The position numbers and the translations under genes were made by a program. From positions 1,426,001 through 1,490,000 of the forward strand of contig NZ_AP025171.1 in assembly GCF_003402535.2 (NCBI RefSeq): a DNA stretch of 64,000 nt, given 5' to 3'. The notes beneath the pieces are model-generated. The model saw only the letters and a list, made by a program, of their open reading frames with translations. It was not told the DNA's origin and ran no database searches. This document shows, piece by piece, positions 661 through 27,684 of this stretch. The stretch comes from Cupriavidus sp. P-10 (GTDB lineage: Bacteria > Pseudomonadota > Gammaproteobacteria > Burkholderiales > Burkholderiaceae). Positions within the stretch are counted from its first letter, which is position 1. Each line of letters opens with the position of its first letter.

Positions 661-2400
661 CTAGCTCTTCTGACGGTTGCTCAGGCGACTCATGACGTAG
701 GCGCGTGCCTGGTGACTCATGGCGCCATCGAGGAACAACTGTTCGAGCGCGTCGAGATCCGGCGTGCGCCTCACCAGGTGGTCCAGAATCTTGTGGAAAT
801 CGGTCGCATCCGTCTGCAGGCCGAAGACTTCGGCGGAGATCAACCCGATACTCTCACCAAACGTTTCACCGGTCATAGGCACCACTCGGGTCAGGTCGCC
901 CTCGCGACGCACCACGCGGACATGGCGCGCGAGGGATTCCTGAACCACTACCGGTGAATGCGTGGCCACCACCGCGAACGCCTTGAATTCGCGCAGGATG
1001 CCGCGCAGGGCGTGCATCAGCGCGGCCAGCAGCGGCGGATGGAGATGGGTTTCCGGCTCGTCGACCAGGACAAGAGAATAGGGTTCGATATGGGCGAGCA
1101 ACCCGGTGACAATCAGCAGGGCAATCTTGTGCCCCGTGCTGCAGGCCAGGAAGGCCGCCCTGGCATCGTCGACGGAACATTCTGCCAGCAGCAGGTGAGC
1201 GTCTTGCAGCGCCGACTCCCCGATCAGGTCAGTGGCGAACTTGTGAAGCCGATGCTGCCGGCCTTTCCCATGCACCTTCTCGAGCGAGAGGCGGAACTCA
1301 TCGGCAAGCTGCTCGATCGACTTCAAGCGCGTTCTTCCCAGACGATCGCCGCGCAACGGTTCGTCCTCGAGCGAGGCAGGGGCCGATGTGGTTCCCCTGG
1401 ACGTCGATTCTCCAATGACGTCCCGGATGCCGATGAAGCTGAACCGGCCTTCACCCCGCTCCAGATCCTTGAGGACTTGCTTGCGGTTGCGGCTGTCGGA
1501 ACCGGGCAACTTGAAACTGTCAAAGGGACTGAAGGCGACCGTGATGATGCGGGGGAAGCCGACGCCAGGCGGTTCCAGTCGACCCAGGTCAGCGAGGGGT
1601 CCCTTCGCGCGTTCCTCGAGCGTGCCAAATGCGACACGGGCCAGGCGCGCCAGCAACGTGCTTTTCCCCGACCCATTGCGTCCGACCAGTACTGCAATGC
1701 GCTCGGGCAGGAGCGGGGAGGACAAGAAATCATCCGCCGGGGCGTCGAACGCGAAGTCGACCGGCGCTTGCCAGGTGGGCATCGCAAACGAGAACGACAT
1801 GTCTTCGGCCGGCGTCCTGGCGTAGATCCCCGTAATCAAGCCTCGCGCCAGCGTCATGAAGCTGGTGCCGTCGTCGTTGTGGTCCCGGAACAGGGAGGTG
1901 GACCAGCCCGCCTCATGCTCGAACTGCGCCACCAGGGCCGGACTGTGCACGACATCCCGCAGCGCGCTCAGGACCTCGATTTTCCGCTTTTCGCCAAGTG
2001 CGTTGATGCGCTCGTAGTAGTCGAGCGACTGACCAACCGAACAGAAATCCTCGTCAAGCTTGTCGAAATCCGCGCTGAGTAGCAGGCCGTCCGCCGCCGT
2101 CTGGCCCCGCTTCAAGATCTTCACCGGGCCGAGTAGGGTCTCCTCGATGCTGCCCGAGGCATTGATGTCGAAGTAGGAAAGGTGATACTGCGTGCGAAAG
2201 CTGTGGTCATTCCAATTGTCCTGCTCGAGGACGAAGGTGGGGAATCCGGCCTTGGGGCGCGCGCCGCGAGGCTTCCGAATCTTGAACCGCTTGTTCTCCA
2301 CCGCTTTGCTCCAGAGCTGTGCCGACCGCATCATCGCACAGGAGACGTAGGCGCCATGCGTTCTCCCATCCTGAGTAGGGGGCTCAATTGGCCCGCCCAT
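661..2400 (-). CDS. ptuA: AAA/ABC-type ATPase, PtuA-like (Septu)
   Basis: ATPase partner of the HNH nuclease that follows it by 4 bases. Visible motifs: Walker A GRNGSGKST (about residues 240-248), a signature-like STGHK (421-425), Walker B LVLVDEPETHLHP (from about 443) and the H-loop ATHSP (479-483). The arrangement is that of an SMC/OLD-like AAA ATPase without a TOPRIM domain. The first 200 residues include a segment starting DNWNDHSF that resembles the N-terminal region of other defence ATPases. In Septu, PtuA forms a ring or filament that holds the HNH protein and is thought to sense infection by ATP state; that role is carried over by analogy. The start is uncertain: ATG at 2400 or the double ATG near 2331-2334. 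Confidence 0.75.
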   Translation of the reverse strand: MGGPIEPPTQDGRTHGAYVSCAMMRSAQLWSKAVENKRFKIRKPRGARPKAGFPTFVLEQDNWNDHSFRTQYHLSYFDINASGSIEETLLGPVKILKRGQTAADGLLLSADFDKLDEDFCSVGQSLDYYERINALGEKRKIEVLSALRDVVHSPALVAQFEHEAGWSTSLFRDHNDDGTSFMTLARGLITGIYARTPAEDMSFSFAMPTWQAPVDFAFDAPADDFLSSPLLPERIAVLVGRNGSGKSTLLARLARVAFGTLEERAKGPLADLGRLEPPGVGFPRIITVAFSPFDSFKLPGSDSRNRKQVLKDLERGEGRFSFIGIRDVIGESTSRGTTSAPASLEDEPLRGDRLGRTRLKSIEQLADEFRLSLEKVHGKGRQHRLHKFATDLIGESALQDAHLLLAECSVDDARAAFLACSTGHKIALLIVTGLLAHIEPYSLVLVDEPETHLHPPLLAALMHALRGILREFKAFAVVATHSPVVVQESLARHVRVVRREGDLTRVVPMTGETFGESIGLISAEVFGLQTDATDFHKILDHLVRRTPDLDALEQLFLDGAMSHQARAYVMSRLSNRQKS

Positions 2401-5006: not shown

Positions 5007-6377
5007 ATGGCGGATCTAGTGGCGCTGCGCCGCGTGCTGGCCCCCCTCATCAGCGGGTTGAAGGACCATGCCACGCACGAGCGCCTGCCGGAACTCTGCC
5101 TGGCACTGGGTCTGCCGCCGCCGGATCCGGAGGGATCCAAGCGGGACCGGATCGAGGCCAGCTTTGCGGCCGTCGCCGATGGGCGGCTGCCGGAGGTGGC
5201 CACCCGCCTGCTCGCGCAGCATCCCATCGACGCGGCCGTCCGCAACCGCATCCAGGATCTGATTTGGCACGATCAGACCGCGGTGGCCATCTCCAAGCGG
5301 GTGCGTCGGGAGGTGGCGCGGGCGATCCCGCTCGAAGACCTCTATCTCGATGCCGGCCGGTTCGACATCCTGCTCGACGCGCTCTGGGTCATCGAGGATG
5401 ACCCGTTTGCGGCGCTCCTGGGCAGGCCGGCGCACGGCCTGCGGACCGAGATTGAGCAGCATGTGCACCGAAATCCGGGAGACTGGTCGGTGGAGACCTT
5501 GTTCGACCGGCTGGGCGCCTTTGAGGCCAGCGACGCGCGCTTCGCGCGGTTCCTGGAAGGTCTGGCGGGTGCCGATGTGCGCCCCGACGAAGCGGCGCAG
5601 CGCGACTTCGTCGCCCGCGTGAACGTCGCGCTGCACCGGGCTGGTTGCGATTTGCGGGAGTGCGGCAGCCAGGATGGCTATCCCGAATACCGCCTGATGC
5701 CCTTGCATGATGGGGTGGCCGGGCGCCCCAAGAACCTGATCTTTGCCTCGTCGGTCAAGCCAGACCTGCGCTTTCGGGACGCCATCAATAACGACATCGA
5801 GATCGTCACGCACGCCGACCAGGTCCTCGTGTACGACCGGCCGATCTCGGTCGAGGGCTTGCGCTGGCAGGATCTGCAGGACTGGTGGCAAGAACGGGAA
5901 GCGATCGCCGATCCGGAAATCGCCAAGCGCACCCTTTATGAGCGGCTGCAAAGCAGCCTGCCCGAAAGCTCGCCACCGCAACGGACGCTGTTCAAGGGCT
6001 ATCACCGCGCGTTTGGCAGACGGATTCCCGGGCTGCCGGCCCTGCTGCCCGAGGTCTGGCTGCACTGGGATCCGCGCACGGCAAAACAGCGGGGCGCCGC
6101 AGCACTGCTGAGTCACCGGATGGATTTTCTCCTGCTGCTGCCGCATGATGTCCGGATCGTGATCGAGGTGGACGGCAAGCACCACTATGCCAAACCGGAC
6201 GGGATGGCATCCCCCCAGCGCTACGCCGACATGGCACGTTCCGACCGCGAACTGAAACTGGCCGGCTATGAGGTCTACCGGTTTGGCGCCAACGAGTTGC
6301 TCGCCGACAACGCCGAAGCGCAGATGCGGGACTTCTTTGCTGCCATGTTTGCCCGCTATCGCAGCGCGAAGCTGTAG
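5007..6377 (+). CDS. PD-(D/E)xK nuclease with AbiJ-like N-terminus (full-length copy)
   Basis: The C-terminal 170 residues form a restriction-endonuclease-like fold: Asp373 (RMDFLLLLP), then Glu387-Val-Asp-Gly-Lys391 (IEVDGKHHY), followed by a helix with YADMARSDRELKLAGYEV, like DUF559/Vsr-type nucleases. The first 90 residues (GSKRDRIEASFAAV region) recall AbiJ N-terminal modules that precede effectors in abortive-infection proteins; that match is tentative. A single gene with sensor-like N-terminus and nuclease C-terminus fits a stand-alone defence effector. A truncated second copy of its last 175 codons lies about 9.9 kb downstream at 15757-16292. It follows the H-NS-like gene by 121 bases. 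Confidence 0.72.
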   Translation: MADLVALRRVLAPLISGLKDHATHERLPELCLALGLPPPDPEGSKRDRIEASFAAVADGRLPEVATRLLAQHPIDAAVRNRIQDLIWHDQTAVAISKRVRREVARAIPLEDLYLDAGRFDILLDALWVIEDDPFAALLGRPAHGLRTEIEQHVHRNPGDWSVETLFDRLGAFEASDARFARFLEGLAGADVRPDEAAQRDFVARVNVALHRAGCDLRECGSQDGYPEYRLMPLHDGVAGRPKNLIFASSVKPDLRFRDAINNDIEIVTHADQVLVYDRPISVEGLRWQDLQDWWQEREAIADPEIAKRTLYERLQSSLPESSPPQRTLFKGYHRAFGRRIPGLPALLPEVWLHWDPRTAKQRGAAALLSHRMDFLLLLPHDVRIVIEVDGKHHYAKPDGMASPQRYADMARSDRELKLAGYEVYRFGANELLADNAEAQMRDFFAAMFARYRSAKL

Positions 6378-6459: not shown

Positions 6460-7689
6460 ATGTACAAGATTCCGCGAAACATCGGTTACAACGATCTGGC
6501 GACGCTCTACGACGCGCTACAGCGGGAAGGCGCGTCGACGGCAGCAATGCCGGTTAGCTTCCCCGAAGGTGGCAAGTTTGGAATGGCCGGCCTGCTAATC
6601 CAGTGGATCGCAGCATGGGCACGCTCTGGCCCGAACCATGTCGTCTCTGTCTCCGGCGTACCGATTGAGACCGTACTGGCCAATTTGGCGGACGAGCCTC
6701 ATGGATGCGCGGCACTGTATTTTGCCTCCGGTGTCTCCGGTGCACGCGGCGTCGAGTTCGGTCCCGCGGAAGCGCGCAAGTATTTGATTCCGGGTCTGAA
6801 AGCCATGCAAGGGTCCCGGTTCAGGGACACCAATGGCAGCCGGGGGGTTCACCTCTGCTGCTACCATGGCGCGGTAAATGAATTCCTGCTGCCGTTGTAC
6901 GGCAGGCGTTCGGAAGATTCACTGCGCGACTCGGACGGCTTCCTTGTCCTGACCAAGCAGATCCTCGAGTCGTTTGAACCTCTCGCCGTTCGAGCGATGG
7001 CGCCGGACCAACTGGAGTACCTGGCCACGCTGGTCGAAGAACTATTTTCGAACACGCATGACCACGCGCGCGTCGACCAGAACGGCATGAGTTACCCGAG
7101 CGGTAATGTTAGGGGGATCTTCGCTCGTACGTTTGAGCAGAGGGCCCGCGTTGACGATTCCGGAAAAGACCTTGGCCCCCTCGGACGGTACCTGACGTGG
7201 CAGAGCACCCATAGGAAGCTCTACAAGCCACCGGTGAAGACTGTGTCGCCGGACGAGTTGCGGGAAATCCGGAACGTTCGGAAGGACGCCGTCGCACCCA
7301 GAGCAACCCGGTTCCTCGAGATCACCATCTACGATGCCGGTCCTGGACTCGCCCGAAGATGGGCGTCCCAACACGTGCAGAATTTCCGTTGGGACAAGCT
7401 CTCGATCGAGGACGAGGCGAACTACGTCAAAGCCTGCTTCCAGGCCCATGCAACGACGAAACGCAGTCGAGGATTCGGTCAAGGCCTTTCTTCGTCTCTT
7501 CAAGCCCTGAAGGCCCTGGATGCGTTCATGTCGCTGCGCACCGGGCGGCTTTTTCTCTATCAGGATTTTTCGAGGCAAGATGCGGAAGGCTTCGCGCCGA
7601 AGCATTGGGATGAAGCAAGGCCACAACTGCCCGATGTACCTGGGGCGTCTTATACGGTAGCGATTCCGCTTGCGAGGGCGAAGAAATGA
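6460..7689 (+). CDS. GHKL-family ATPase of an unnamed two-gene unit
   Basis: A GHKL (histidine-kinase/MutL/Hsp90-like) ATP-binding fold occupies about residues 180-400: N-box EELFSNTHDHA (193-203), G1 box DAGPG (292-296) and G2 box RGFGQGL (337-343). There is no His phosphoacceptor domain, no MutL or Hsp90 C-terminal domain and no membrane segment, so it is neither a normal sensor kinase nor a topoisomerase. The first 90 residues (PVSFPEGGKFGMAGLLIQ) look like a small alpha/beta domain, possibly STAS-like. The last codon overlaps an ATG (ATGA at 7686-7689) leading into the frame of the next gene, so the two proteins were made together. Its role is unknown; the position inside a defence island suggests the sensing or regulatory half of a two-protein system. 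Confidence 0.75.
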   Translation: MYKIPRNIGYNDLATLYDALQREGASTAAMPVSFPEGGKFGMAGLLIQWIAAWARSGPNHVVSVSGVPIETVLANLADEPHGCAALYFASGVSGARGVEFGPAEARKYLIPGLKAMQGSRFRDTNGSRGVHLCCYHGAVNEFLLPLYGRRSEDSLRDSDGFLVLTKQILESFEPLAVRAMAPDQLEYLATLVEELFSNTHDHARVDQNGMSYPSGNVRGIFARTFEQRARVDDSGKDLGPLGRYLTWQSTHRKLYKPPVKTVSPDELREIRNVRKDAVAPRATRFLEITIYDAGPGLARRWASQHVQNFRWDKLSIEDEANYVKACFQAHATTKRSRGFGQGLSSSLQALKALDAFMSLRTGRLFLYQDFSRQDAEGFAPKHWDEARPQLPDVPGASYTVAIPLARAKK

Positions 7690-7739
7690 GCGGTCTTTAC
7701 TCTTACCGCTGGGAGCGCCCCTCGAAGAAATCCATCTAG
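7686..7739 (+). other. 17-codon leader ORF in frame with the next gene, ended by an amber codon
   Basis: ATG at 7686 overlaps the stop of the GHKL gene as ATGA and reads MSGLYSYRWERPSKKSI before TAG at 7737-7739. The same frame then runs open straight into the 698-residue protein annotated from 7779. This is what a nonsense mutation or sequencing error near the start of the original gene would leave; programmed readthrough or a coupling peptide are other options. Confidence 0.5.
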
Positions 7740-7778
7740 GTCATTTTTTGTCCCGCAGGGTGCGCTTCAGTCCCCGAT

Positions 7779-9875
7779 ATGGCGGTCGCCTTGAACAGGG
7801 CTGCGCAGGCCGTTCTGTACCCGGATGCCGTCATTGTTGCCTGCCTGTCGGAAGACAAGGGCGCCAACCTGGCCGTGCTGACCAGCGACCGGGTACAACA
7901 AAGCATCGCACGGTTCGCGGGGAAAGCGAGTGTGCATCTCGCCGTATTCGGCGTGACGGGCGACCTCGTCGAGATAGCTCCCATCCAAACGCATTCGGCA
8001 ACGGATGCGCTCGTCACGCTGGCCGCGTTGCAAGCCCAGTGCAAAGGTATGCTAGACGCGGGCGTCCATGCCGTATTTTCCCAGAAGGGCGTGGTGGTGC
8101 CGGCTCCGCCGGGATTTGAGTTCATCAAGCCGTCCGGTGAACGATCCAGTCACTTCCTGCGTGCCGAAGAGGCGCTTTCCAACAGCGCCGCGGTCGATTT
8201 CATCGCGTTCGCACTGCTGCGAAGGATTCAGATCCAAGATTTGAAGGTGATCTTCGTGGACTCGATGGCCATCGCAAGCATTGCCTATGCGATTCGGGAG
8301 ATTCGATCACGCGCCGGTTTGCCGATGCCTCAAATCGTGAGTTTTCACTCTCACGAAGGACTGGCAGCCACGACCGTCCCTCCAAGCGGCACCTTCTTTT
8401 GCATCATTTCGGCGTCGTCCTCCCTGTCCTTGGAAAAAAAATGGCTGGAGTACACGGGATGCGCCGAGGGGGAGGTCGTTACGCTCCTGACGTTCCGCGA
8501 TGCGATCACCTCGCAACAGCCGATGTGCGCGGTCGATCGACCGCAAAATTGGCGTGATGCGCAGTTGCCTGTCGCGGGAATCCGAGGGCTGCGGATCTTT
8601 GGCGAACGGTTCCAGCCGGAACAGATGCCGGCAAAGAAAGTACTGCTGGGTCTGAAGAAGCACCGCTGCGAAAACGCGACGCTGTTGGCCGAAAGATTCC
8701 ACAACGCCCGGTTATTCTCCGTGGATGGACTCGATGACTTGGGAAAGCGCCGTGCGCTGTATGCAGACGGCGCGACGGTGCTTGCAAACGGGAATTTCGA
8801 CGATTGGCTGAAAAAGCAACTGCGATCCCGGGTGCCGGCCTCGATTCAGGGCATCATCTACCAAGATGATCCGGCCAGTCTCGCCATGGCGAACACGTGT
8901 CGCCGGATCCTGGCGGCGATGCAGGTTTCCTGGGGACTGCATAGCAGTTCGACCTTCGAGGGCAAGCTTGACGAGGTGGACAGGCATCGGGCGATACTGG
9001 TTGTCGCGGCGGTGATTGGCAAAGGCTCGACATTACTCGGCATTTCGAGAGATCTGCGTGCCAGCCATTTCGGCGCGAGGACGTATCTCTGCGGGCTGCA
9101 AGTCTGTGCGACTGATGCAAGCGCAACGTCTCTAAGAAGCAATCTCGCTCAAACGAAAGACGGAACCGCGTACTTCGGGGCCTTCCACGTGGCCGCGGTC
9201 GGAAGCGCGCTCGAGCAGTCGCTGCGGCAGGAGGCAGATATTCTGCGTCTCAAGGATTCGCGCCTTGATGTCCTGGAATATCGCTGGGCCCCGTCACGCA
9301 ATGCAGGGCTTGTGACCGACGCCTTTCTGCCTTCGTTGGTGTCCGGCAAGCATCGCTTGGTGCTGCGTCCCGATTTTGCATTCTGGAAGCCAGGGTACGT
9401 TGAGGGCGCCTCTCACGCACCCATGGTGTTGGCGACCATCGGGGCCATTCTCGAGCGGGCGAGAACGCCAACGATCGAAGAAGATGATCACCGCCTGTCT
9501 TCCGCCGCCTTCCAGCAAGTCGTGCTGGATCCGCAGAATTTCACGCGGTACAACGATGGTCTGATACAGTCGGCGCTACTGCGACAGGCCTATCCCTCCG
9601 AGCTCGACTCTTCATCGCTGCCGGAAAACAGCAGTTTCATGCTGCTATTCCTGAAAAAGCTCTTCGCGGCCCGCCACAGCCAGCAGGGTGAAGCCGCCCC
9701 TGAATTTGCCTACGCGCTCGGCGTTGGCAGGCTGAAGCTTCAACCGCGCGATCTGCAGGAGCTGGTGACGCACGTCCGCGGCATGGTGGGGCAAACACCC
9801 GGAGACGCTGAACTTATGGCGCTACTATCGCCCGAGCCGGCAAACGCGGACGGTGCGAATGCGGCCGTCATCTAG
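7779..9875 (+). CDS. Large protein with phosphoribosyltransferase-like segments, partner of GHKL ATPase
   Basis: A 698-residue protein that I cannot assign to a characterised family. Residues 119-170 (SGERSSHFLRAEE, then VIFVDSMAIASIAYAI) resemble the N-terminal part of orotate-type phosphoribosyltransferases. Residues 404-440 (ILVVAAVIGKGSTLLGIS) look like a PRTase PRPP-loop strand-loop-helix, but with Ala-Ala where active enzymes carry the two acidic residues. Residues 358-371 (GIIYQDDPASLAMA) may belong to the same fold. No membrane segment is seen. It sits immediately after the GHKL ATPase in the same operon. The annotated ATG at 7779 has no good ribosome site; the original start may be 7686, now separated by the amber codon at 7737. 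The PRTase reading is an inference from pattern only. Confidence 0.6.
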   Translation: MAVALNRAAQAVLYPDAVIVACLSEDKGANLAVLTSDRVQQSIARFAGKASVHLAVFGVTGDLVEIAPIQTHSATDALVTLAALQAQCKGMLDAGVHAVFSQKGVVVPAPPGFEFIKPSGERSSHFLRAEEALSNSAAVDFIAFALLRRIQIQDLKVIFVDSMAIASIAYAIREIRSRAGLPMPQIVSFHSHEGLAATTVPPSGTFFCIISASSSLSLEKKWLEYTGCAEGEVVTLLTFRDAITSQQPMCAVDRPQNWRDAQLPVAGIRGLRIFGERFQPEQMPAKKVLLGLKKHRCENATLLAERFHNARLFSVDGLDDLGKRRALYADGATVLANGNFDDWLKKQLRSRVPASIQGIIYQDDPASLAMANTCRRILAAMQVSWGLHSSSTFEGKLDEVDRHRAILVVAAVIGKGSTLLGISRDLRASHFGARTYLCGLQVCATDASATSLRSNLAQTKDGTAYFGAFHVAAVGSALEQSLRQEADILRLKDSRLDVLEYRWAPSRNAGLVTDAFLPSLVSGKHRLVLRPDFAFWKPGYVEGASHAPMVLATIGAILERARTPTIEEDDHRLSSAAFQQVVLDPQNFTRYNDGLIQSALLRQAYPSELDSSSLPENSSFMLLFLKKLFAARHSQQGEAAPEFAYALGVGRLKLQPRDLQELVTHVRGMVGQTPGDAELMALLSPEPANADGANAAVI

Positions 9876-10238
9876 CTTCCGGCCTTCCAGCAGACGCGTG
9901 GCTTAGTGCCTTTTAGTGCCGCGCGATGCGCCGCTGAACGGATGGCTCAGCGAGGCAAGTCCGGAACCGCCTGGGGGCCGTTCGCGCTAACGCAGAAAGG
10001 CGGAGGGCGGCTCAGTAATCCGTTCGGCACACAGCGCTGACGGAGTCATGCGTCTGCGCGGCGATCGGTATGTCTGCAGCAACCCCCTCCCTAAGTTGGG
10101 TTATGGAGAAGGGCCAGGTGCCGAAATATATCTGATAATCGCAAGTTTGACTGAATTGGCATTTTGGGATGCAATCATCCAGGATTGCGCTTGGGGGTTC
10201 GCGTCTAGACACCGAAATTGGCTCACGGAGTGTTGGGC
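9876..10238. other. Intergenic region before ABC-3C operon
   Basis: About 360 bases with no convincing gene. It separates the GHKL/PRTase unit from the ABC-3C unit and should hold the promoter for the latter. A GGAG at 10227-10230 sits 8 bases before the ATG at 10239 and decides that start. Confidence 0.5.
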
Positions 10239-13860: not shown

Positions 13861-13998
13861 CGCAGGAGGATCGTGAAGGGGCAACGAAGCTCCCTTTTTT
13901 TCCGGTAACAGACGCGCTGTAAAATCTTGGTCGAACCGCTGATGAACCGGCGGCCGCAGGCTTCGATCCGATATCCCCACTCAACTGTACTCCTACAA

Positions 13999-15114
13999 AT
14001 GGACCGTATTTGCTCATCCTGCTTCGCTGACGAAGATCTGCGCGCATGGATCCGAGAGGAGGGCGGACCGCGCGGCTGTAGCACCTGTCAGAAATTCGAC
14101 TCGCCAACGGCAGAGTTTCATAAGGTCGCAAGCCGTATCGAAGCATGTATCCGACGGTACTACGGGCGTGCTGTGGATCAGCTCGGATACTGCTCGGCAG
14201 AAGGCGGCTATTTGGGTCCCCACTGGGATTCGTGGGATATGCTGGAAAAGATCAATCTGGTACTGCCCAGGGATGATGGGACCCTATTTGATAGCATCGC
14301 CCGGACCATGATGGATGAAGTCTGGTGCGATTTCGATGTGGGTGCTCTCGACCCTGACGAAGCGTTGTGGACAAGTTGGCAGAGCTTCTGCGAGACAGTC
14401 AAACACGAGCGACGCTTCTTCTTTCACGCAACCGGAAGAGATGACCAGGATTCGTTATCGCCAGCGTCTCTGCTAAGCCACATTGCCACCGTGAGCGAGA
14501 ATATCGGCTTAATCACGGAGATACCCGCGGGTACTAAGTTCTGGCGCGCGCGTCCCGACATCGCCAAAGGCCAACGCGTGTCCGCCGCACAATTTGGGCC
14601 GCCGCCAGTTGAACACGCCTTGCAGAGCAATCGCATGAACCCGGCTGGTATTCCCATGCTTTATCTTGCTTCCAGCATTGCAACAGCGCTTAGGGAAACT
14701 CGGGTGGCCGCGGCGAAAGTAGGGCTTTGGCGCGCGATTCGTCCACTACGTGTTCTTGACTTGCGGACTTTGCCACCCACACCGGGCATGTTTTCAGATG
14801 CCGCCCGGATGCCAGCTCTTACTCTGAGTTTCTTGCACGACTTTGCCGCTGACATCATGAAGCCGGTGGCGAGGGACCGGCACGTCCATGTTGACTACTT
14901 GCCGTCACAGGTCGTCACCGAATTCGTGCGGGACTATCGGTTCGACGGTGGTGTCGTGGATGGAATTGCGTACGGGAGTACCGTACACCGTCGTGGCTGG
15001 AACATGGCACTGTTCCTCGGCCCAGTCGATTTGGGCCTAGCAGATCCAATGTGGGGTAGAAAGTCGCGCCCCAGCCTGGCATTTGAGCGAGCCGTGTGGG
15101 CGACGAATGTCTAG
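13999..15114 (+). CDS. RES-domain toxin with N-terminal zinc motif/HEPN-like region
   Basis: The C-terminal half is a RES domain, the NAD+-degrading ADP-ribosyltransferase-like fold seen in RES-Xre toxin pairs. Its key residues are present: Arg183 (FWRARP), Tyr222 (PMLYLA), Glu233 (ALRETR) and Ser303 (DYLPSQ). The N-terminus carries ICSSCF (Cys5, Cys8) and CSTC (Cys27, Cys30), a zinc-binding pair, then a helical region with WDSWDMLEKI that may be a HEPN-like module. At 371 residues it is about twice a simple RES toxin and no Xre antitoxin is adjacent, so this is the larger self-contained form found in defence islands. The ATG at 13999 is chosen because the zinc motif begins right after it; the frame is open upstream from a TTG at 13927. 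Confidence 0.8.
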   Translation: MDRICSSCFADEDLRAWIREEGGPRGCSTCQKFDSPTAEFHKVASRIEACIRRYYGRAVDQLGYCSAEGGYLGPHWDSWDMLEKINLVLPRDDGTLFDSIARTMMDEVWCDFDVGALDPDEALWTSWQSFCETVKHERRFFFHATGRDDQDSLSPASLLSHIATVSENIGLITEIPAGTKFWRARPDIAKGQRVSAAQFGPPPVEHALQSNRMNPAGIPMLYLASSIATALRETRVAAAKVGLWRAIRPLRVLDLRTLPPTPGMFSDAARMPALTLSFLHDFAADIMKPVARDRHVHVDYLPSQVVTEFVRDYRFDGGVVDGIAYGSTVHRRGWNMALFLGPVDLGLADPMWGRKSRPSLAFERAVWATNV

Positions 15115-15756
15115 CGACCGGCGTAGGTCGCATGGGGCAGAATGGCGAGAAGGGCCCGGTGTTTATGCTCTGCCGCGACAGGGATTCGACCCCTTGCTCT
15201 CCTGGCGCGGCACCGAGCGGGGGATTCCCGCACGGCACGTGACCTCGCTCGCTGAAACGTTCGGCGCAGGCCCCAGCGGCCCGAGGAAGTTTGGTGGGCC
15301 GCGACGCACGCGTCGCAGATGGCTGTCGTGCCAGTGCGCACAGGGCGGCCGTTTAGCCTCTACGTTGAACTGGACACCCGGATCGGCGATGAGGTGTGGC
15401 CGACTTGATCAAGCCATTGCCGGACGGGATTGTCTGCGCCATGCATTCTCACCCGCTTCCATCGAGGGGAGGCCATCGCCCGCTTGAGCCGGAGTTGTAG
15501 ACGCGCAGAGACGGAAATGTGGTCGCGGCTGCTGAACCCTCCAAGTCCCATACTCGGTGCGCGGCGGGTACTGACTCCCTATCAAAAGACTAGCGACACG
15601 TCTGCAATTTTGGATCCCGCGGATCACCTCTGCGAGGAATGTACCCTCGTAGTCGTACCTTCCGACGACCAACGTTGTTGGGTCATGGTCACACCAATGG
15701 ACTGACGGCTAACGTCGGGGCGTGTATCGGCGCGGGCCATACACTGGGCTTTGGAG
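15115..15756. other. Decayed intergenic stretch before nuclease remnant
   Basis: About 640 bases without a supportable gene. Short reading frames exist on both strands but none has a recognisable motif or a ribosome site. It ends at the point where similarity to the upstream nuclease begins, so it probably holds the break point of a rearrangement. Confidence 0.5.
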
Positions 15757-16292
15757 TCCCGGCCGAGGGCCTGCGCTGGCAGGATCTGCAGGACTGGTGG
15801 CAAGCGCGCGAAGGGATCGCCTATCCGGAAATGGCCAAGCGCGCCCTCTATGAGCGGTTGCTAAGCTGCCTGCCCGACAACTCCCCGCCGCAACGGACGC
15901 TGTTCAAGGGCTATCACCGCGCGTTTCGCACCCAGATTCCCGGACTACCAGCGCTGGTGCCCGAGGTTTGGCTGCACTGGGATCAGCGCACCGCAAAGCA
16001 GCGGGGCGCTGAAGCGCTGCTGAGTCACCGAATGGACTTTCTGCTGTTGCTGCCGCATGACGTCCGGATCGTGATCGAGGTGGACGGCAAGCACCACTAC
16101 GCTGCCGATCCAGAGGGGAAGGCCTCGGCCCAACGCTATGCGGACATGGCACGCTCCGACCGCGCGCTGAAATTGGCGGGCTATGAGGTCTACCGCTTTG
16201 GCGCCCATGAGTTGCTCGCCGACAACGCGGATGAACAAGTTCGGGAATTCTTTGTGGCCATGTTTGCCCGGTATCGCACCTTGAAAAGGTAA
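15757..16292 (+). pseudogene. 5'-truncated second copy of the PD-(D/E)xK nuclease
   Basis: From about 15757 the sequence reads EGLRWQDLQDWWQ and continues to the end of the nuclease domain, matching residues from about 284 to 454 of the 456-residue protein at 5007-6377 without a gap. The catalytic core is retained (MDFLLLLP, IEVDGKHHY). The nucleotide sequences are clearly alike by eye, in the range of 80-90 % identity. The 280-residue N-terminus is gone. A frame remains open back to 15639 but that upstream part is unrelated. It could still make a stand-alone nuclease domain if expressed, but no ribosome site is evident. Confidence 0.8.
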
Positions 16293-20864: not shown

Positions 20865-22301
20865 TTGTTTAGTCACGAGACGATAACAACTCCAACGAAG
20901 ATGGCACAACTAACGAGTTTGTCGAAGCTCCCGCACGATGTTCGGCTCGTCGCCGCGGTGTCGCGCCTGATCGACCTGCATCAGAGTCGTCGTGAAACGG
21001 GCGGCGTGTACGTTCCCGAGACCCCAGAGCGGGCCGGATATATGCTGGCGGTCGCCTTCCTGATCCTCGAACTCCTGAGGGAACTCGAAATGGATCGCGG
21101 CCCGACGTTTGTCGCCTTGACGGAACTCCATGCGCGCATCCGGCAACGCGTAACGACGGTCACGGCAGACGACCTGACCTTCGTCGTCGACACGCTCGCC
21201 CGCGAGCGCGATATCCGCTACGGCGTGGAGGACGGCAAAGGCGGCTTGGAGTTTGGGCTCACGAAGGATTCGACGCCGCTTCTCGAACGAGCAAGGGATT
21301 TCAACCAGGTACAACTCACGGAGAATGGACGTCTGCTGCTGCGGGTGTCGGCCGCCAAGGAAAACTGGCTCTATACCGACGTCGACGCAGAGCGGCTGGT
21401 CGCTGCCATCGAGCGCAAGCAATTCGGCGACATTCCGCGGCTGTGTCGCAGCCTCATTCTTGAGGTGGCGTCGAAAAGCAAGCAATTGACCTCCGCCATG
21501 GAGCGGCCCACGCTCTCGGAACTGCGCGATATCCTACTGACGGAGGGCAGCGGCATCGCCGATGCCCTGCAGAAAGCGATCGAGGTGGTCAAGCGAGCCA
21601 TCAACCTGATCCACGGTACGGGCGCCCGCGAAGCATTTGACGCGTGGAAGTACACCTACGGCGTCGAGTACTCGCTGGGCAACCTCCAGACGGAAGTGGA
21701 GATGGTCATGCAGAACGTCGAGGCGCTGTCCCGGCGCTTTGTCACCTTTCTGGACACGGCGCAGCGCGCGAAGCCAGTTGGCGGCACGACCGTGGACTTC
21801 CTGTCGATCGTGAATTCATTGACTATGGTGGGTGCGTCTCCCACACCCGATCGACTGGAAGCGCTCATGGCGGGCATCATGCCTTGGGGTATGCATGGCG
21901 AGACGTTCCATCCGGTCGATTTGGTGGGGCAGGTGGACTTTACCCGCCTCGGCGAGGAGTCGGTCACCCCCGTCTCGACCTTCACCGTCGATCCGACGCA
22001 GGGTGACGCCAGCCACAATCGATTCCTCAACTTCCTGCTGCGCAATCGCGCGCTGGTGATCTCTCAACTCAAGGAACAGCCGACCCTGTTCTCTGAGATC
22101 GTGACAGGGACGGACTTCGCACTTGAGGCGGGCGAAAGTCCGGCCGACTTCTTTGGCGTGTACTCGTCGCCCGAGCAACTGGATGGCGAGGGCTTCACGA
22201 TCAAGGTCGGCCTAACCGGCAAGACCTTCCAAACTAAAATCGGCGGCACCTGGTTCTCGGGGACGGATCCGATGATGTTTCTTGAGGAGAGCACGCAATG
22301 A
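20865..22301 (+). CDS. jetA: Wadjet JetA, kleisin-like component
   Basis: First gene of a four-gene SMC operon with the JetABCD order. The protein (478 residues) is soluble and helix-rich with winged-helix-like ends, as expected of the kleisin-like subunit that bridges the JetC heads. I see no catalytic motif and identify it mainly by position, size and company. Wadjet complexes extrude and cleave circular DNA, excluding plasmids. The start is ambiguous: TTG at 20865 has a good GGAG 9 bases before it, while the ATG at 20901 has only a weak site. The last codon overlaps the jetB start as ATGA (22298-22301). Which Wadjet subtype this is cannot be settled by eye. Confidence 0.72.
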   Translation: MFSHETITTPTKMAQLTSLSKLPHDVRLVAAVSRLIDLHQSRRETGGVYVPETPERAGYMLAVAFLILELLRELEMDRGPTFVALTELHARIRQRVTTVTADDLTFVVDTLARERDIRYGVEDGKGGLEFGLTKDSTPLLERARDFNQVQLTENGRLLLRVSAAKENWLYTDVDAERLVAAIERKQFGDIPRLCRSLILEVASKSKQLTSAMERPTLSELRDILLTEGSGIADALQKAIEVVKRAINLIHGTGAREAFDAWKYTYGVEYSLGNLQTEVEMVMQNVEALSRRFVTFLDTAQRAKPVGGTTVDFLSIVNSLTMVGASPTPDRLEALMAGIMPWGMHGETFHPVDLVGQVDFTRLGEESVTPVSTFTVDPTQGDASHNRFLNFLLRNRALVISQLKEQPTLFSEIVTGTDFALEAGESPADFFGVYSSPEQLDGEGFTIKVGLTGKTFQTKIGGTWFSGTDPMMFLEESTQ

Positions 22302-23131
22302 ACATGGCCGACATGGGCGCAGCATTCGCCTACCTGCAACACTGGCGCGTCGCTTTCGGAAACCCGCCCGGGCGCAACCTGCGCGATGGCGAACGGGAAG
22401 CCGTGCGTATTCTCTCGAATTGCAACGCTGTCGATCTAGCCGCCTTCGATGAATTTCTGGCCACGCAGGGTCTGACGTTGATCGAGCGCAACGGCATGGA
22501 GTTTGGCATCCCGTCCAAATCTGGTGTGTCGAACAGTATCTGGGTGCTGACCCGCAAGCGCGGTACCAGCCTGCCCGCCTATGTCGATAGCCGCTGGTAT
22601 GTTGAGCGCATGCGTGACCGCCGGGGTGGGGACAGCGACGAAAAGCGTCACGAAACCGTGTTCTGGGTGACTCGCCTTTGGCTCACGCTGCAATGGTTCT
22701 TCTATCAGAAGATTGACCGACACCCGTCTGAGGTCAGCCGCTACCGGGAGGCCATGGTGTCCAAGCGTCTGTTCGTTGACATCCTGAAGGGCGGCATTGA
22801 GGAGATGGGAAATACTGGCCGCCCGGAAGGCGAGGCCGGGATCGTCTTCGACTACTTCTGGAAGGAAGCCAACAAGATCAACATCTGGGCGACGCGCTTC
22901 CTGACTGTGATGGAGGAGGCTGGCATGATCGAGCCCACCGGCAACAAGGAAGAATGGAGCCAGACTGTGCTCGCGGCGGTCGAGATGGCTGATGTGGCGG
23001 CAAACGAAGTCGCCTACCTGTTGCCGCCGGCGCAGCGCCCGGCGGCCTTGGAAACCGCAGCCCTGTTACTGGGTGAGTCGGTCGAGTCGGTGCAGGCCCG
23101 TCAAGCAGAACAGCAAGTACACGGAGCGTAA
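22298..23131 (+). CDS. jetB: Wadjet JetB, kite-like winged-helix component
   Basis: A 277-residue soluble protein starting in ATGA overlap with jetA and ending 5 bases before jetC. In Wadjet the second gene encodes a kite-type winged-helix dimer that binds the kleisin. The middle of the protein (HETVFWVTRLWLTLQWFFY) is aromatic-rich and the C-terminal 100 residues are helical. Assignment rests on gene order in a complete JetABCD operon rather than on a diagnostic motif. It is longer than the roughly 200-residue JetB of well-studied systems. Confidence 0.68.
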   Translation: MNMADMGAAFAYLQHWRVAFGNPPGRNLRDGEREAVRILSNCNAVDLAAFDEFLATQGLTLIERNGMEFGIPSKSGVSNSIWVLTRKRGTSLPAYVDSRWYVERMRDRRGGDSDEKRHETVFWVTRLWLTLQWFFYQKIDRHPSEVSRYREAMVSKRLFVDILKGGIEEMGNTGRPEGEAGIVFDYFWKEANKINIWATRFLTVMEEAGMIEPTGNKEEWSQTVLAAVEMADVAANEVAYLLPPAQRPAALETAALLLGESVESVQARQAEQQVHGA

Positions 23132-23136
23132 GTGGC

Positions 23137-26100
23137 ATGCCTTTAATCAATCGCATCGAAGTTTCCAACTTTATGAACAGCCGTCGCCAGGAGCCGTGGC
23201 GCCCGGATTGGGTCTACCAAGTATTCAACCCCAAGGGTGAGAATACCGCCATGAATATGCCCAATGGTCGTGGCAAGAGCACCATGATCGGCGGCACGCT
23301 TGGCATGCTGGCGGGCGACTACAAGGTATTGAACGACATCCGGCAAAAGCACTTTTCTCCGGCGTCGAATGGACACTTCACGCATCTGCGGATCGAAGTC
23401 ACGATCGCCGCCGATGACGAAGCGGGCATGGATCTGGTCGCCCAGTCGGGTGGCGATTTCTCGGGCTACCGGATGGTCTTTGGCATCTACGGCACAGCCG
23501 GGGAAGGCCGTGACTACTTTCTGTACTCCTACCGAGGCACCTTTGAAGACTGCCCGATCGGACGCCGTGACGGCCACCGCGTCACGCTGATCGGCAACAC
23601 CACCTTCCTGGAGACGCTCGACGCGCTGCCTTCGCGCTTCCCGACGACGCGCCGGGAGGGAACGCTGATCAACTGGCGCGAGCACGTTGGTGGCATCTTC
23701 GATATGGCTAGTATCGAGCAACAACTCGTCTATCAAAAGGCGAAGGGCGCCGAGGGGAGCAGCAACTACTTTGCGGTCCATTCGGGCAAGCGGCCCTACA
23801 GTGAAGCCGTGTTCTACGAGCGCCTGGCGCCGGAACTGCTCGTGGACATGATGGGCAACATTGACGAGTTCGCGGGCGAACGGGGTATCGAGGACACGAT
23901 CCACGAAAAGGTCCGCAATATTATCGGGGCCCAGAACCGCACCAAGCAGGCCGAAGAAGGCCTTAACGAAACACGGATCCTGCTTGACGAGCTGGAACGG
24001 GTGGAGAAGCAGGCCGGCGACCTCAATGCAGCAGAGCAGGAAGCGCACGCCGCGTTGACCGACGCTTCGCTGGCGCAGGCCGTCATCAAGAATTTGGCCA
24101 CGGATGATCCCCTGCCTGGCGTTCCGCTTGCTCCGCCGCCCGGTGCACCGGCGCTTGCCCGGTGGATGGTGATGCAGGATGGCGAATGGCACTTTGCCGA
24201 TCTTGGATTCGAGCAATTGACCGGGGAAAAACCGGCTGATGTCGCGACCCGAGCCGGCCGCAATCAGGTTTCACTGACCCCGCTGATGAAGCAGCGGGCG
24301 ATTGCCTGCGAGGGCAGCGGGATGGTCGAACTGCTGGTGAGCGCCTCGAAAGGCAATCCGAAGCTGTTCAAGCGCCATTTTGCGCTGGCCTTCAACGGTC
24401 TGACGAGGAACTTCCGCGAACAGTTAGACCAAGCATCGGTCGCAGCGGCGCTCAATACGGCCTTCGATTGGGCGGAAGCCAACGCCGATACGAACCCCGC
24501 TCGTCTCGAAAAAGCTCGTCTGGATATTCAGCGTGAAGAGGCTAGTGTCGAGCATGAGGCGCTTCAACGGGAGGGGACTGCACTGACCAGGGAGGCTGAG
24601 GAGCTTCGGGGCCAGTTGTCGGAGATCAACGCGCAGCAAGCCGAATACGCTCGGATGTTGGCGAGCGGGCTTTTCACCGAAGCGGAAATGCGGCAGCCGC
24701 TGAAAACCGGGCAGCGGGTCGGCGAAGTGCTTAGCGAGGCGGAAGAGAAGCTGGGCACGCATCGCGTGAAAATGGCCGAGCAAACAGACTCCTTCGAGAA
24801 GTGGCAGGAGTTCGTGGCCGAGCATGGGGACGATGCCCAGCCAAAGGCCGTGTTGGAACGGCTCGGCGACGCCTACGAAACCGCGCAAGCACAGGCCTTT
24901 GACGCCAAAATCACGAAAGATACCGCGTCCGAAGCAGCCGAGAACGCTCGACTTGAAGAGAAGGCCGCCACCGCTGCGCTGAAGGAAATCTCCGATCGCA
25001 CCGGAAAGCTGGAAGATCTCGCCCCCCGAGTCGGCGTCTTCAGGAGCGTCTTCGGGGATGAATCGCCGGATGGCCTCGCGGACCGCGTGAAGGCGGTCCT
25101 TGCCGCCGCGAGGTACCGCGACGCTGAGATCCACACTCAACGCACGAGAATGCGCGAAGGGCTGGAGGCGCTCGCAGCCTTCGAAGCGGCCCATGGTGAC
25201 GCCGTGGCGCCCGCCCAGTGGCTGGAACAGCGGACCAAACGGAGCCAGATGTTGACCGAGGAAATCCTTGGCCATCGGCATGATCTGGCGGACTTAACAG
25301 CGCGGCGGCGCGACCTCGATACCCATCCCGTGGCGGCCGGTAAGGTGGCGCGGGAAGTCCTAACCTTCGCGGGCGCAGACGCCATGCCGCTGCACACGGC
25401 AGTTGAGCAGATGGGGCTTGCAGAGGAGCGAAAGGGAAAGATCCTTTCGCTGTTCTCGGCGTTGCTGTTTTCGCCGGTCTACGCCGATGCCGGCCGCGCT
25501 GCGGCCGTGGCGTCCCAATTGGCGGAAAGAGGGATCGAATCGCCTGTCTTTGTGGCGATGGAACTCGAACAGTTCTGCACGGCGGGCGAGATCGCGTTCG
25601 ACGGCCGTGTGGCAAGTACGTGGCTCGTCGGGGTCAGGACGCGGCCAGTGGACTGCTTGCTGGATCCGACCCTGGTCGAGCGGGAAAAGACACAGCTTGC
25701 ACTCGAGATCGAACAGGTGCGCACGCTCCTCGCTGAAAAGGAGGTCGAACTCAAAGCAATGGACCCGAACTCGCCGGCGGCCCAGCAGGCATACAAGGCC
25801 AGCGATGCCGTGGCCCAGAGCTACCGCCAACTGGACAAGACGCTCGCGGATGAGCAGGCACCGCTGCGTGAGCGGCTGCCCGAACTTGAGGTACGTGCCT
25901 CTGCCGAATCCATCGAAGCCATTAAGGCGGTAATTGCTCATCGCCAGGTTTTGGGCGACGACAGCATCGAGGAATTGCTTGAGCGTTTGGTCCTCGCCAA
26001 AGACCGCCACGGGCAGGCAGAGGAGGCGATGAAAACCAGGCTCGATCAGGCTCGTGTTGCCGACCAAGCCTCCGACGAATGTCATCGGGTAGTAGCGGCG

Positions 26101-27684
26101 GCGGGTAGAGAACTCGCCGGCGCAGAGGGTGACCTTAAGCAGGTGGACGCCTTCATCCAGGCGCAGGGACCGGAGTTCATGCGGACCGCAGCTAGTGTGC
26201 GAAACAGTTTGGCGAAGGACTTGGATACCGCCAAGAAGCGGAGCGTGTTTCGGTTCGATGCCGTGGAGTCCTTTGTGACGTGCGGCGACCAACGGCCCAA
26301 AGAGATTCAGGACCGACTGGCGGAGATCCGACCTGAGCAGGAACGCGTCAGCAATGACCTCGGGTTGGTCACAAAGCGCATGGACACGCTCATTGGAGCT
26401 TCCCGCGCCTTAGAAGGCCAAGCCAGAGAGGTCGATGACGTTGTGCGCTCACTGCGGCAGAAGCAGCGTGAGTTGGTGCTGCGGGACTGCATCCCGATCA
26501 CAGTCCGGGAAGATGTGCTGATCAGCCACCCTGCGTATCAGCAGGCCGCGGAAGTACGTTTGGGCCGCGACATCGAAGCCATTGTGACCGCACTCAAGAC
26601 CCTTAATGAGCGACTTGGCGACATTAATGCCGGGGTGATCAGCCAGAATCTTGACGCTGCGCGTAGGCAGTTTGCAAGGGCACGCACGCTCTATCACGAC
26701 GAGATCGACCGCGTGAAGGGTAGCGGCATGGCGCTGATTGATGAACAGATCAAAATGGGGCTCGATGAGGCGAAGGAAAACCTCGCGGTCCTTGGCCAAC
26801 TCATTACCGGAACCCGGAGCATCTATGAGCGTAGCCGGCAGGCAAACGAACAAGCCGCTCAGTACCTCGATCAGCAATGGTCTGAGATAGGCTCGTGGTT
26901 GGGGAGCTTTACGCGCCGCCTGCCGACCAATCTCGATACCATGAAGCGGGTGTTCCGCCCGCGGCGCGACCCGGTCTCAGGCGATATCGTCAAGGCTGGA
27001 TTCGAGATCGAGGCCAAGCTCGCCGATATGTCAGATGTGAGGGCGGTGCTCGACGGTATTGTCCAGAAGGTCGAGAAGCGAGAGCGTACGCGCGAAACCT
27101 ACGCCGAAGACGAGGTGGTGCAAACGATCGCGGACAAGAACCTGCGCAAGGATATCCGAGACGAGTTTTACCGCAATGTGATCGTGGAGCCGAAGATCCG
27201 CGTGTGCTTGCCCGCGATTTCGCAACGGCCGCTGCTTCTGGAAAAGGATATGGCGTCGTCCGGGCAGGGTGTGGCGATGACCCTGCTCTGGATCGTCAAG
27301 ATGGCGGATTACGTGACCGAGCGGGAACTCGACAGGCAGAGCGTCAGCGCGGCGAACCGCAAGAAGATCCGCAGCCAGCGGACGCAGTTCGTCTTCATCG
27401 ACGGTGCATTCTCGCACTTATCGGACCCGCGCCTAATCGATGATGCGCTTAAGGGGGTGCAGGAAAGCCGTGGCAAGTTCCAGCTTCTCATTACCGGGCA
27501 CGATCCCAACTATCAGAATAAGTGGGAGTACTTCCCGACCTATGTGGTGGCCCGCGAGATCGGTGGCAACATGATGTACGCCGATAGCGAGACCCGACGG
27601 CTGCTGGAGCCGGAGGAGGTCGGGGCACGACACGGGGTCATGGAACTCGCATCGTTCCGCAAGGGCGAGGCTGCCGCGCAATGA
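23137..27684 (+). CDS. jetC: Wadjet JetC, SMC/MukB-like ATPase
   Basis: A 1515-residue SMC motor. The N-terminal head has Walker A MPNGRGKST (41-49) and the C-terminal head has a signature ASSGQGVAM (1373-1381) and Walker B FVFIDGAFSHLSD. Long Glu/Ala/Arg-rich coiled coils run between about residues 440-760 and 850-1300, with a compact middle segment near 770-850 as hinge. Walker B Asp1422 is followed by Gly1423, where most SMC ATPases have the catalytic Glu. JetC would drive DNA loop extrusion so that JetD can cut small circular DNA. It starts with ATG at 23137, 5 bases after jetB, and overlaps jetD by ATGA. Confidence 0.82.
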   Translation: MPLINRIEVSNFMNSRRQEPWRPDWVYQVFNPKGENTAMNMPNGRGKSTMIGGTLGMLAGDYKVLNDIRQKHFSPASNGHFTHLRIEVTIAADDEAGMDLVAQSGGDFSGYRMVFGIYGTAGEGRDYFLYSYRGTFEDCPIGRRDGHRVTLIGNTTFLETLDALPSRFPTTRREGTLINWREHVGGIFDMASIEQQLVYQKAKGAEGSSNYFAVHSGKRPYSEAVFYERLAPELLVDMMGNIDEFAGERGIEDTIHEKVRNIIGAQNRTKQAEEGLNETRILLDELERVEKQAGDLNAAEQEAHAALTDASLAQAVIKNLATDDPLPGVPLAPPPGAPALARWMVMQDGEWHFADLGFEQLTGEKPADVATRAGRNQVSLTPLMKQRAIACEGSGMVELLVSASKGNPKLFKRHFALAFNGLTRNFREQLDQASVAAALNTAFDWAEANADTNPARLEKARLDIQREEASVEHEALQREGTALTREAEELRGQLSEINAQQAEYARMLASGLFTEAEMRQPLKTGQRVGEVLSEAEEKLGTHRVKMAEQTDSFEKWQEFVAEHGDDAQPKAVLERLGDAYETAQAQAFDAKITKDTASEAAENARLEEKAATAALKEISDRTGKLEDLAPRVGVFRSVFGDESPDGLADRVKAVLAAARYRDAEIHTQRTRMREGLEALAAFEAAHGDAVAPAQWLEQRTKRSQMLTEEILGHRHDLADLTARRRDLDTHPVAAGKVAREVLTFAGADAMPLHTAVEQMGLAEERKGKILSLFSALLFSPVYADAGRAAAVASQLAERGIESPVFVAMELEQFCTAGEIAFDGRVASTWLVGVRTRPVDCLLDPTLVEREKTQLALEIEQVRTLLAEKEVELKAMDPNSPAAQQAYKASDAVAQSYRQLDKTLADEQAPLRERLPELEVRASAESIEAIKAVIAHRQVLGDDSIEELLERLVLAKDRHGQAEEAMKTRLDQARVADQASDECHRVVAAAGRELAGAEGDLKQVDAFIQAQGPEFMRTAASVRNSLAKDLDTAKKRSVFRFDAVESFVTCGDQRPKEIQDRLAEIRPEQERVSNDLGLVTKRMDTLIGASRALEGQAREVDDVVRSLRQKQRELVLRDCIPITVREDVLISHPAYQQAAEVRLGRDIEAIVTALKTLNERLGDINAGVISQNLDAARRQFARARTLYHDEIDRVKGSGMALIDEQIKMGLDEAKENLAVLGQLITGTRSIYERSRQANEQAAQYLDQQWSEIGSWLGSFTRRLPTNLDTMKRVFRPRRDPVSGDIVKAGFEIEAKLADMSDVRAVLDGIVQKVEKRERTRETYAEDEVVQTIADKNLRKDIRDEFYRNVIVEPKIRVCLPAISQRPLLLEKDMASSGQGVAMTLLWIVKMADYVTERELDRQSVSAANRKKIRSQRTQFVFIDGAFSHLSDPRLIDDALKGVQESRGKFQLLITGHDPNYQNKWEYFPTYVVAREIGGNMMYADSETRRLLEPEEVGARHGVMELASFRKGEAAAQ

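Follow-up and report, generated by a model that had tools for sequence, protein, structure and literature searches.

A GHKL ATPase paired with an orotate phosphoribosyltransferase-derived protein in a Cupriavidus defence island, a new member of the candidate defence system PDC-M65

Among described anti-phage systems, VapKSC places an effector under the control of a SpoIIAB-like kinase (PMC13373217). The present analysis concerns two adjacent genes, here called A and B, in a window of 64,000 nucleotides from Cupriavidus sp. P-10 (GCF_003402535.2, contig NZ_AP025171.1, positions 1,426,001-1,490,000, forward strand); A encodes a GHKL ATPase and B a protein derived from orotate phosphoribosyltransferase (OPRT). 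VapKSC and CapK-CapS share with this pair a SpoIIAB-like GHKL protein encoded in an operon with its presumed target and near defence genes (PMC13373217). The pair differs from them in having no recognised STAS partner or PIN toxin, and its target would be an OPRT-derived protein of about 700 residues. Separate STAS antitoxin and PIN toxin genes, which lie next to the kinase gene in VapKSC, are not seen beside A: the next gene is B, which has no Pfam match.

Other systems resemble one half of the pair. The DprA-phosphoribosyltransferase (PRTase) system of P2-like phages and the retrons with PRTase effectors also place a PRTase-type protein in an anti-phage operon, but its partner is DprA or a reverse transcriptase rather than a GHKL protein (PMC9122126). 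VcSduA, a GHKL-Shedu protein, requires its GHKL ATPase for anti-phage defence; unlike the present pair it carries a nuclease fused in the same protein and no PRTase (PMC12137116). Among the validated Escherichia coli systems of DefensePredictor, which may or may not be related to the present family, a PRTase domain is named in a figure legend and HATPase in another figure (PMC13092281).

A gene pair of the PDC-M65 family

Both proteins match models of PADLOC-DB 2.0. PDC-M65A (PDLC04764) matches A with an E value of 6.5e-21 (72.7 bits), its best stretch covering model positions 183-350 of 398 only, and PDC-M65B (PDLC04765) matches B in two stretches with an E value of 1.6e-65 (219.7 bits); the models were searched singly, outside PADLOC's coverage and synteny thresholds. 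The matched genes adjoin each other and keep the order seen in their relatives, the window copy of B differing by a stop at codon 18. That the window pair belongs to the same family as PDC-M65 is close to certain, and the locus adds a member to a candidate defence system that is listed and apparently uncharacterised. An earlier sequence-only reading had taken the pairing for an undescribed one; this is not borne out, and a wholly unlisted system is rejected, since PADLOC-DB 2.0 already holds models that match both proteins. PDC names are given to candidates that emerged from a 'guilt-by-embedding' screen (Payne 2024 preprint, through its citation in PMC12988326) and that PMC12988326 and PMC10855318 term unvalidated. 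The name PDC-M65 was not found in the literature searched, a body that lies apart from the Payne 2024 preprint and from subscription papers, and no characterised defence pair of a GHKL protein and a PRTase was seen there. What is new here is the anatomy of B, a sister type with intact loops, a link with thyX and an interrupted copy.

The association of the two genes is nearly invariant. Relatives are encoded in 140 stretches, the best 80 of which comprise 78 distinct loci. In 75 of these loci A immediately precedes B on the same strand, in support of the coupled two-gene unit claimed by the sequence-only reading. In the other three (L039, L073 and L075) no A was detected, and the start of B is only 3, 310 and 166 nt, respectively, away from the end of the contig, which leaves no room for A. 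No third gene recurs beside the pair in more than 13 of the 78 loci. The distance matrices of A and B are strongly correlated (Mantel r 0.93), none of 999 permutations reaching as high a value. Within the order, 8 of 399 genomes match B and seven of these also match A at E<=0.001; the eighth (G068) carries an adjacent A-like gene, below the threshold of the A search, that was found by reading the locus (L009). Searches of 398 genomes of the phylum with the PADLOC models show A in six and a strong match to B in the same six. The 15 further weak B rows of that search all fall in one family (f79), of which one row (L116) is a 193-residue Pribosyltran protein and another (L114) a distant true relative. 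We hold with high confidence that A and B form an obligate functional unit.

The loci belong to Pseudomonadota and Bacteroidota, with single cases labelled Planctomyces, Verrucomicrobiales, Parachlamydiaceae, Obscuribacterales and Syntrophobacterales. Plasmid copies number at least 10 in 72,556 records. No homologue was found in phage records, none of 89 stretches of viral contigs that matched a pattern was confirmed, and a blastn search of E. coli genomes with the Pantoea agglomerans pair, sensitive at the DNA level only, returned nothing. The sequence-only reading had allowed that both proteins might fall into a characterised system, or that their homologues might be mainly unlinked housekeeping genes; no characterised system containing both was found, and the homologues are linked, sparse and accessory.

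Domain anatomy of A and B

In A the N, G1 and G2 boxes follow one another along a Bergerat fold, the arrangement that defines the GHKL ATPase superfamily (Table 1). The motifs E194xxxN198, D292xGxG296 and G340xG342L343 are kept in 89-99% of 76 homologues. The closest known match of this domain is SpoIIAB, and RsbW-like domains also match. Pfam gives no match at all for window A, so none to a DHp domain; the model matches span the catalytic domain, and a missing match is not proof of absence. Comparison of residues 1-128 by hhalign with seven STAS domains of the same genome yields a P value of 0.14 over 8 columns, a search that divergent folds may escape. The earlier description of a GHKL ATP site without recognised DHp, MutL or Hsp90 parts is supported.

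B carries two OPRT-like domains in tandem, followed by a C-terminal domain that is strongly conserved. The AlphaFold2 model of an intact relative (P0002), compared with the Protein Data Bank (PDB), shows a type I PRTase fold, confirming the fold proposed from the sequence; the matching PDB rows concern the PRTase part, and the Foldseek list also includes an unrelated long chain (9rl4, 3.7e-4, prob 0.66). This fold is shared with PyrE, but B is tandem, is fused to two extra domains and lacks the acids of the phosphoribosyl pyrophosphate (PRPP) loop in all 79 members. Residues 410 and 411 are exclusively A, G, S, T, V or P throughout the family and are both alanine in the window, as the sequence-only reading had reported. 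A single member (L059) has an acid at 412, and positions 210-213 of domain 1 are acid-free in every member. An active PRTase is rejected for window B on the absence of these two adjacent acids. Serines S191, S211 and S618 are invariant (79/79), and a PyrE-like CxxCxxG/N motif, sought as a regular expression, lies between the two OPRT-like domains in 33 of the 79.

Support from hhalign for domain 1 as OPRT-like is weak or none: against the PRTases of its own genome domain 1 returns nothing and domain 2 a P value of 0.021, with 6 of 13 loci left out for want of a detected PRPP motif. At E<=0.001, 48 proteins match B, itself counted. Pfam names no domain in window B. In the family it gives only weak matches to PRTase-CE, a name not found in the literature searched: a single one of 48 members reaches 0.019, and L114 reaches 0.076. 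One search by sequence for relatives of solved structure gives two rows at E 0.5 and another none. A STAS domain in the N-terminal part of B is unsupported by hhalign against the same seven STAS domains. The C-terminal domain appears in no other architecture among the 120 listed of 125 matches, none of which has a Pfam domain and nearly all of which are 700-750 residues long.

Table 1. Features of the A-B pair in the window (positions of the window; residues of the encoded proteins)
Feature	Positions	Strand	Basis or remark
Gene A (PDC-M65A), 409 aa	6460-7689	+	Open reading frame (ORF) listing; N-terminal alpha/beta domain ~1-128, GHKL ATPase domain ~150-405
A N box VEELFSNTHDHAR, residues 192-204	7033-7071	+	N198 in 99%, E194 in 89% of 76 homologues
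A G1 box IYDAGPGLA, residues 290-298	7327-7353	+	D292 97%, G294 97%, G296 99% of 76 homologues
A G2 region HATTKRSRGFGQGLSSS, residues 330-346	7447-7497	+	G340 97%, G342 99%, L343 97% of 76 homologues
Position of the B start in the family (ATGA overlapping A); 17 codons readable in the window	7686-7736	+	Homologues begin here
In-frame TAG, B codon 18	7737-7739	+	Sequence reading; '1 TAG' in genome profile match
Gene B open frame (PDC-M65B), 698 aa	7779-9875	+	~31 family N-terminal residues missing; ORF listing and PADLOC 1.6e-65
B first OPRT-like domain, residues ~98-272	8070-8594	+	AlphaFold2 strand/helix order; B profile match to 193-aa PyrE-like protein
Ser-rich ISASSS loop at PRPP-loop position, B domain 1	8406-8429	+	S211 in 79/79
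B second OPRT-like domain, residues ~296-477	8664-9209	+	
B degenerate PRPP loop LVVAAVIGKGSTL, residues 407-419	8997-9035	+	D/E at 410 or 411 in 0/79 members
B helical C-terminal domain, most conserved part	9210-9851	+	F588 R590 N592 D593 G594 Q597 S618 in 79/79
B C-terminal motif FTRYNDGLIQSALLRQA	9540-9590	+	

A sister type of GHKL and tandem PRTase pairs has the acids that B lacks. Three such pairs are found, on pHG1 of Cupriavidus necator H16 (L141 6626-10043), in G648 (L134 2040-5281) and in G068 (L009 2-3183, its gene being cut off at the locus end), and their proteins match the B profile with E values of 5e-14, 1e-30 and 1e-27, respectively. They share with PDC-M65 the gene order, the OPRT-like domains and the GHKL partner. 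In contrast to PDC-M65, their domain-2 PRPP loops carry the canonical acids (IDDVAYGS in pHG1, LDDVFITG in G648, FDDKIVSG in G068), CxxC motifs follow both OPRT-like domains, thus adding a second one after domain 2, and RYNDG is not kept. The pHG1 pair stands two genes from avs1b/avs1c, with one opposite-strand gene between, and the sister type was not found in phages or viral contigs. The comparison points to a PRPP-competent domain in the ancestor, with loss of the acids in PDC-M65 proper; the reverse order is also possible.

The interrupted B of this strain

The ATGA at 7686-7689 overlaps the stop codon of A, and homologues start B at this position and read through the TAG point with a conserved N-terminus. 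In the window a reading from there ends after 17 codons, and the 698-residue frame opens 89 nt past the stop of A. The coupling through an ATGA overlap that the sequence-only reading described is thus real as an overlap, but it cannot start the 698-residue protein. A profile search of the whole genome likewise reports one TAG within the window B match, which spans model positions 1-735. With starts assigned mechanically, a possible B start lies no more than 29 nt after the stop of A in 74 of 76 A-B pairs, the two exceptions being the window (89 nt) and L058, where A is in two pieces; a spacing of -4 is the commonest (28 of 76 pairs, window included). On these reading frames, start coupling is a family trait that the window copy has lost.

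Window B is taken to be N-terminally truncated or decaying; it may also start late, or the stop may come from a sequencing error. The stronger claim, that the pair is a pseudogene remnant in this strain, with full-length B not makeable and A left over, deserves serious weight, somewhat short of an even chance. The TAG at codon 18 and the lack of a start near the stop of A argue for it. Against it, the remaining 698 codons of window B are open and keep the invariant residues, which makes the interruption look recent, and the TAG may be a sequencing error. In addition, in Spirosoma (L168; whole B 7597-9923) the N-terminal module of B is a separate gene (7597-8013, matching profile positions 1-132) ahead of the rest, so that this module, of which the window copy has only part, can stand on its own in another lineage and a late start may still yield a working core.

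Interruption is not confined to this strain. B is also interrupted in G760 (L135 6352-8540), and A is in two pieces in L038 (187-1373) and L058 (8765-9993), which may reflect a split gene, decay or sequencing error. Intact copies of the pair occur outside the window strain, for example on an environmental plasmid of Cupriavidus oxalaticus X32 (L142 7829-11235). With its interrupted B, the window strain itself would serve poorly in a phage test.

Genomic setting and a proposed switch

In the window the pair stands between an AbiJ_NTD3-DUF559 protein and, in order, Lamassu-like LmuA/LmuC/LmuB, a HEPN-RES gene, Gabija and an operon ending in a JetD-like gene. The flanking AbiJ_NTD3-DUF559, Lamassu-like, Gabija and JetD genes confirm that the pair lies in a defence island, as first read from the sequence. 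The G+C content is 0.55-0.63 at 6-40 kb, compared with 0.65-0.69 beyond 40 kb and 0.69-0.71 at 2-6 kb, and the low-G+C stretch follows a tyrosine recombinase gene. In the wider set, hsd genes of type I restriction-modification (R-M) lie within 10 kb of the pair in 16 of 78 loci and adjoin it in 13, labels that come from sequence clusters and were checked by motif for HsdM (NPP[FYW], 12/12) and HsdR (DExH, 12/12), HsdS being assigned by cluster and tally only. In L059 the pair has part of HsdS on one side and HsdR on the other. Across 198 neighbours, PADLOC tallies (the 25 commonest families per half, E<=1e-20) name type I R-M, BREX, Gabija, Hachiman and TIR-type systems. Among the plasmid contexts viewed (9 of 10 copies), genes annotated Qat follow the pair on pBJ86, TIR genes, thyX and dgt surround it on NZLR1, and nucleases lie upstream of it on the Spirosoma plasmid.

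An anti-phage role of the pair is likely. From the computed pairing, folds, motif loss and conservation, neighbours and TAG, we infer a defence role, a switch, a ligand and an output. A would be a SpoIIAB/RsbW-like GHKL protein with an N-terminal domain of its own, serving as ATP switch or serine kinase, and B its obligate partner, comprising an N-terminal module, two OPRT-derived domains and a C-terminal output domain. Since the PRPP-loop acids are gone, the OPRT domains would bind a phosphoribosyl or nucleotide-like ligand without turning it over. The A-B complex would respond to a phage-induced change, either in the nucleotide pool or in DNA sensed through A; by binding ATP or by phosphorylation, A would then release or arm B, whose C-terminal domain, with its fixed motif R-x-N-D-G-x-x-Q...R...E...G-E, would provide the output. 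Armed B would keep the phage from growing, probably through damage to the metabolism of the host cell. In the window, B would start late owing to the TAG, leaving this copy N-terminally truncated and perhaps inactive. The action of A on B as an ATP switch or kinase is about evenly balanced between true and false, and the same holds for the favoured reading as a whole, namely a PDC-M65 member in which A is an ATP switch on its partner B and the outcome a phage-triggered growth block. Nucleotide sensing by B is put forward tentatively, as somewhat less probable than the switch.

One alternative makes B a guard of the nucleotide pool: its tandem OPRT pseudoenzyme would gauge a pyrimidine nucleotide or PRPP altered or depleted by phages, A would be a chaperone-like ATPase driving the conformational change, and thyX would belong to the same circuit at some loci. 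This account is consistent with the OPRT ancestry of B, with the PyrE-like motif in 33 of 79 members and with a loop that has lost its acids while the glycine and serine loops are kept. It also fits thyX, which directly adjoins the pair in five loci (L040, L043, L045, L145 and L166), once with dgt nearby; Pfam confirms Thy1 for L043, and finds it in 3 members of a set of 94 neighbours. All five loci are alphaproteobacterial, however, the ligand is a postulated one, and the canonical acids of the sister pairs imply that ligand and chemistry may differ. We regard this guard as doubtful. Beside the pairs, thyX and dgt form a pyrimidine theme.

A second alternative denies defence and takes the genes for a selfish, plasmid-maintenance (toxin-antitoxin-like) or metabolic regulatory pair that accumulates in islands. 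The sparse distribution and the plasmid copies agree with it, and the interrupted copies (B of the window and of G760, A of L038 and L058) fit a costly module. Several further observations weigh against a defence role: six of the nine plasmid copies viewed show no annotated defence gene, many genome loci lack an annotated defence neighbour, the neighbours also include TonB receptors, dehydrogenases and further genes of metabolism, and the defence tallies lack a matched control. Nevertheless, unrelated defence systems repeatedly adjoin the pair, and its PDC listing itself rests on embedding in defence loci, according to PMC12988326 and PMC10855318; we consider this alternative unlikely. No more probable is a VapK-like cassette, in which single-stranded DNA would activate A, as a serine kinase, by way of an aromatic residue lying between the N-domain and the GHKL domain, and A would phosphorylate an invariant serine of B to release a toxic activity: the proximity of A to SpoIIAB and RsbW-like domains, the three invariant serines of B and W53 of A, present in 84% of 76 homologues and a putative counterpart of CapK W68 and VapK F54 (precedents in PMC13373217), are in its favour, but neither N-domain gives a STAS signal in the hhalign comparison with seven STAS domains and window B has no Pfam match by which to assign STAS or PIN.

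PDC-M65, apparently a bare database name, here gains a testable anatomy in the residues of an ATP site, the enzymatic origin of B, a dead loop, invariant C-terminal residues and catalytic-looking relatives. If the defence role is true, the family would exemplify an OPRT pseudoenzyme that serves immunity, and the sensing by bacteria of phage effects on pyrimidine pools would become directly testable. A more specific proposal, rather improbable as it stands, is an immune switch of a kind for which no description was seen in the literature searched: a dead nucleotide gauge of duplicated pyrE type that a SpoIIAB-like ATPase or kinase would arm. Its C-terminal effector domain (RxNDGxxQ) would be new, and it would have a sister family with a working-looking PRPP loop. 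If this were true, the sister family would let the step from enzyme to sensor be followed.

Several other features of the window were observed. At 661-2400 (-) lies an AAA ATPase gene matching the PDC-M01A and PtuA models. The C-terminal part of the AbiJ_NTD3-DUF559 protein (5007-6377, +) is repeated 10 kb downstream at 15639-16292 (+), with 74% identity in protein and 86% over 522 nt, and the two copies flank the PDC-M65/Lamassu segment; this cargo may have entered by recombination between the repeats. Between the Lamassu-like and Gabija genes, 13927-15114 (+) encodes a fusion of HEPN_RES_NTD1 and RES with no PADLOC match at 0.1. The JetD-ending operon (20865-28757, +) has four genes, of which the first three (478, 277 and 1515 aa) have no Pfam or PADLOC match at 1e-5 and the last is JetD-like (PADLOC 1.4e-15, Pfam JetD_C 6.4e-8); it is possibly a divergent Wadjet-type system. 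Just past the right end of the window (G000:C2:1492333-1493863), two HATPase_c_2 (RsbW-like) genes and two STAS genes stand together in an arrangement resembling an anti-sigma switch.

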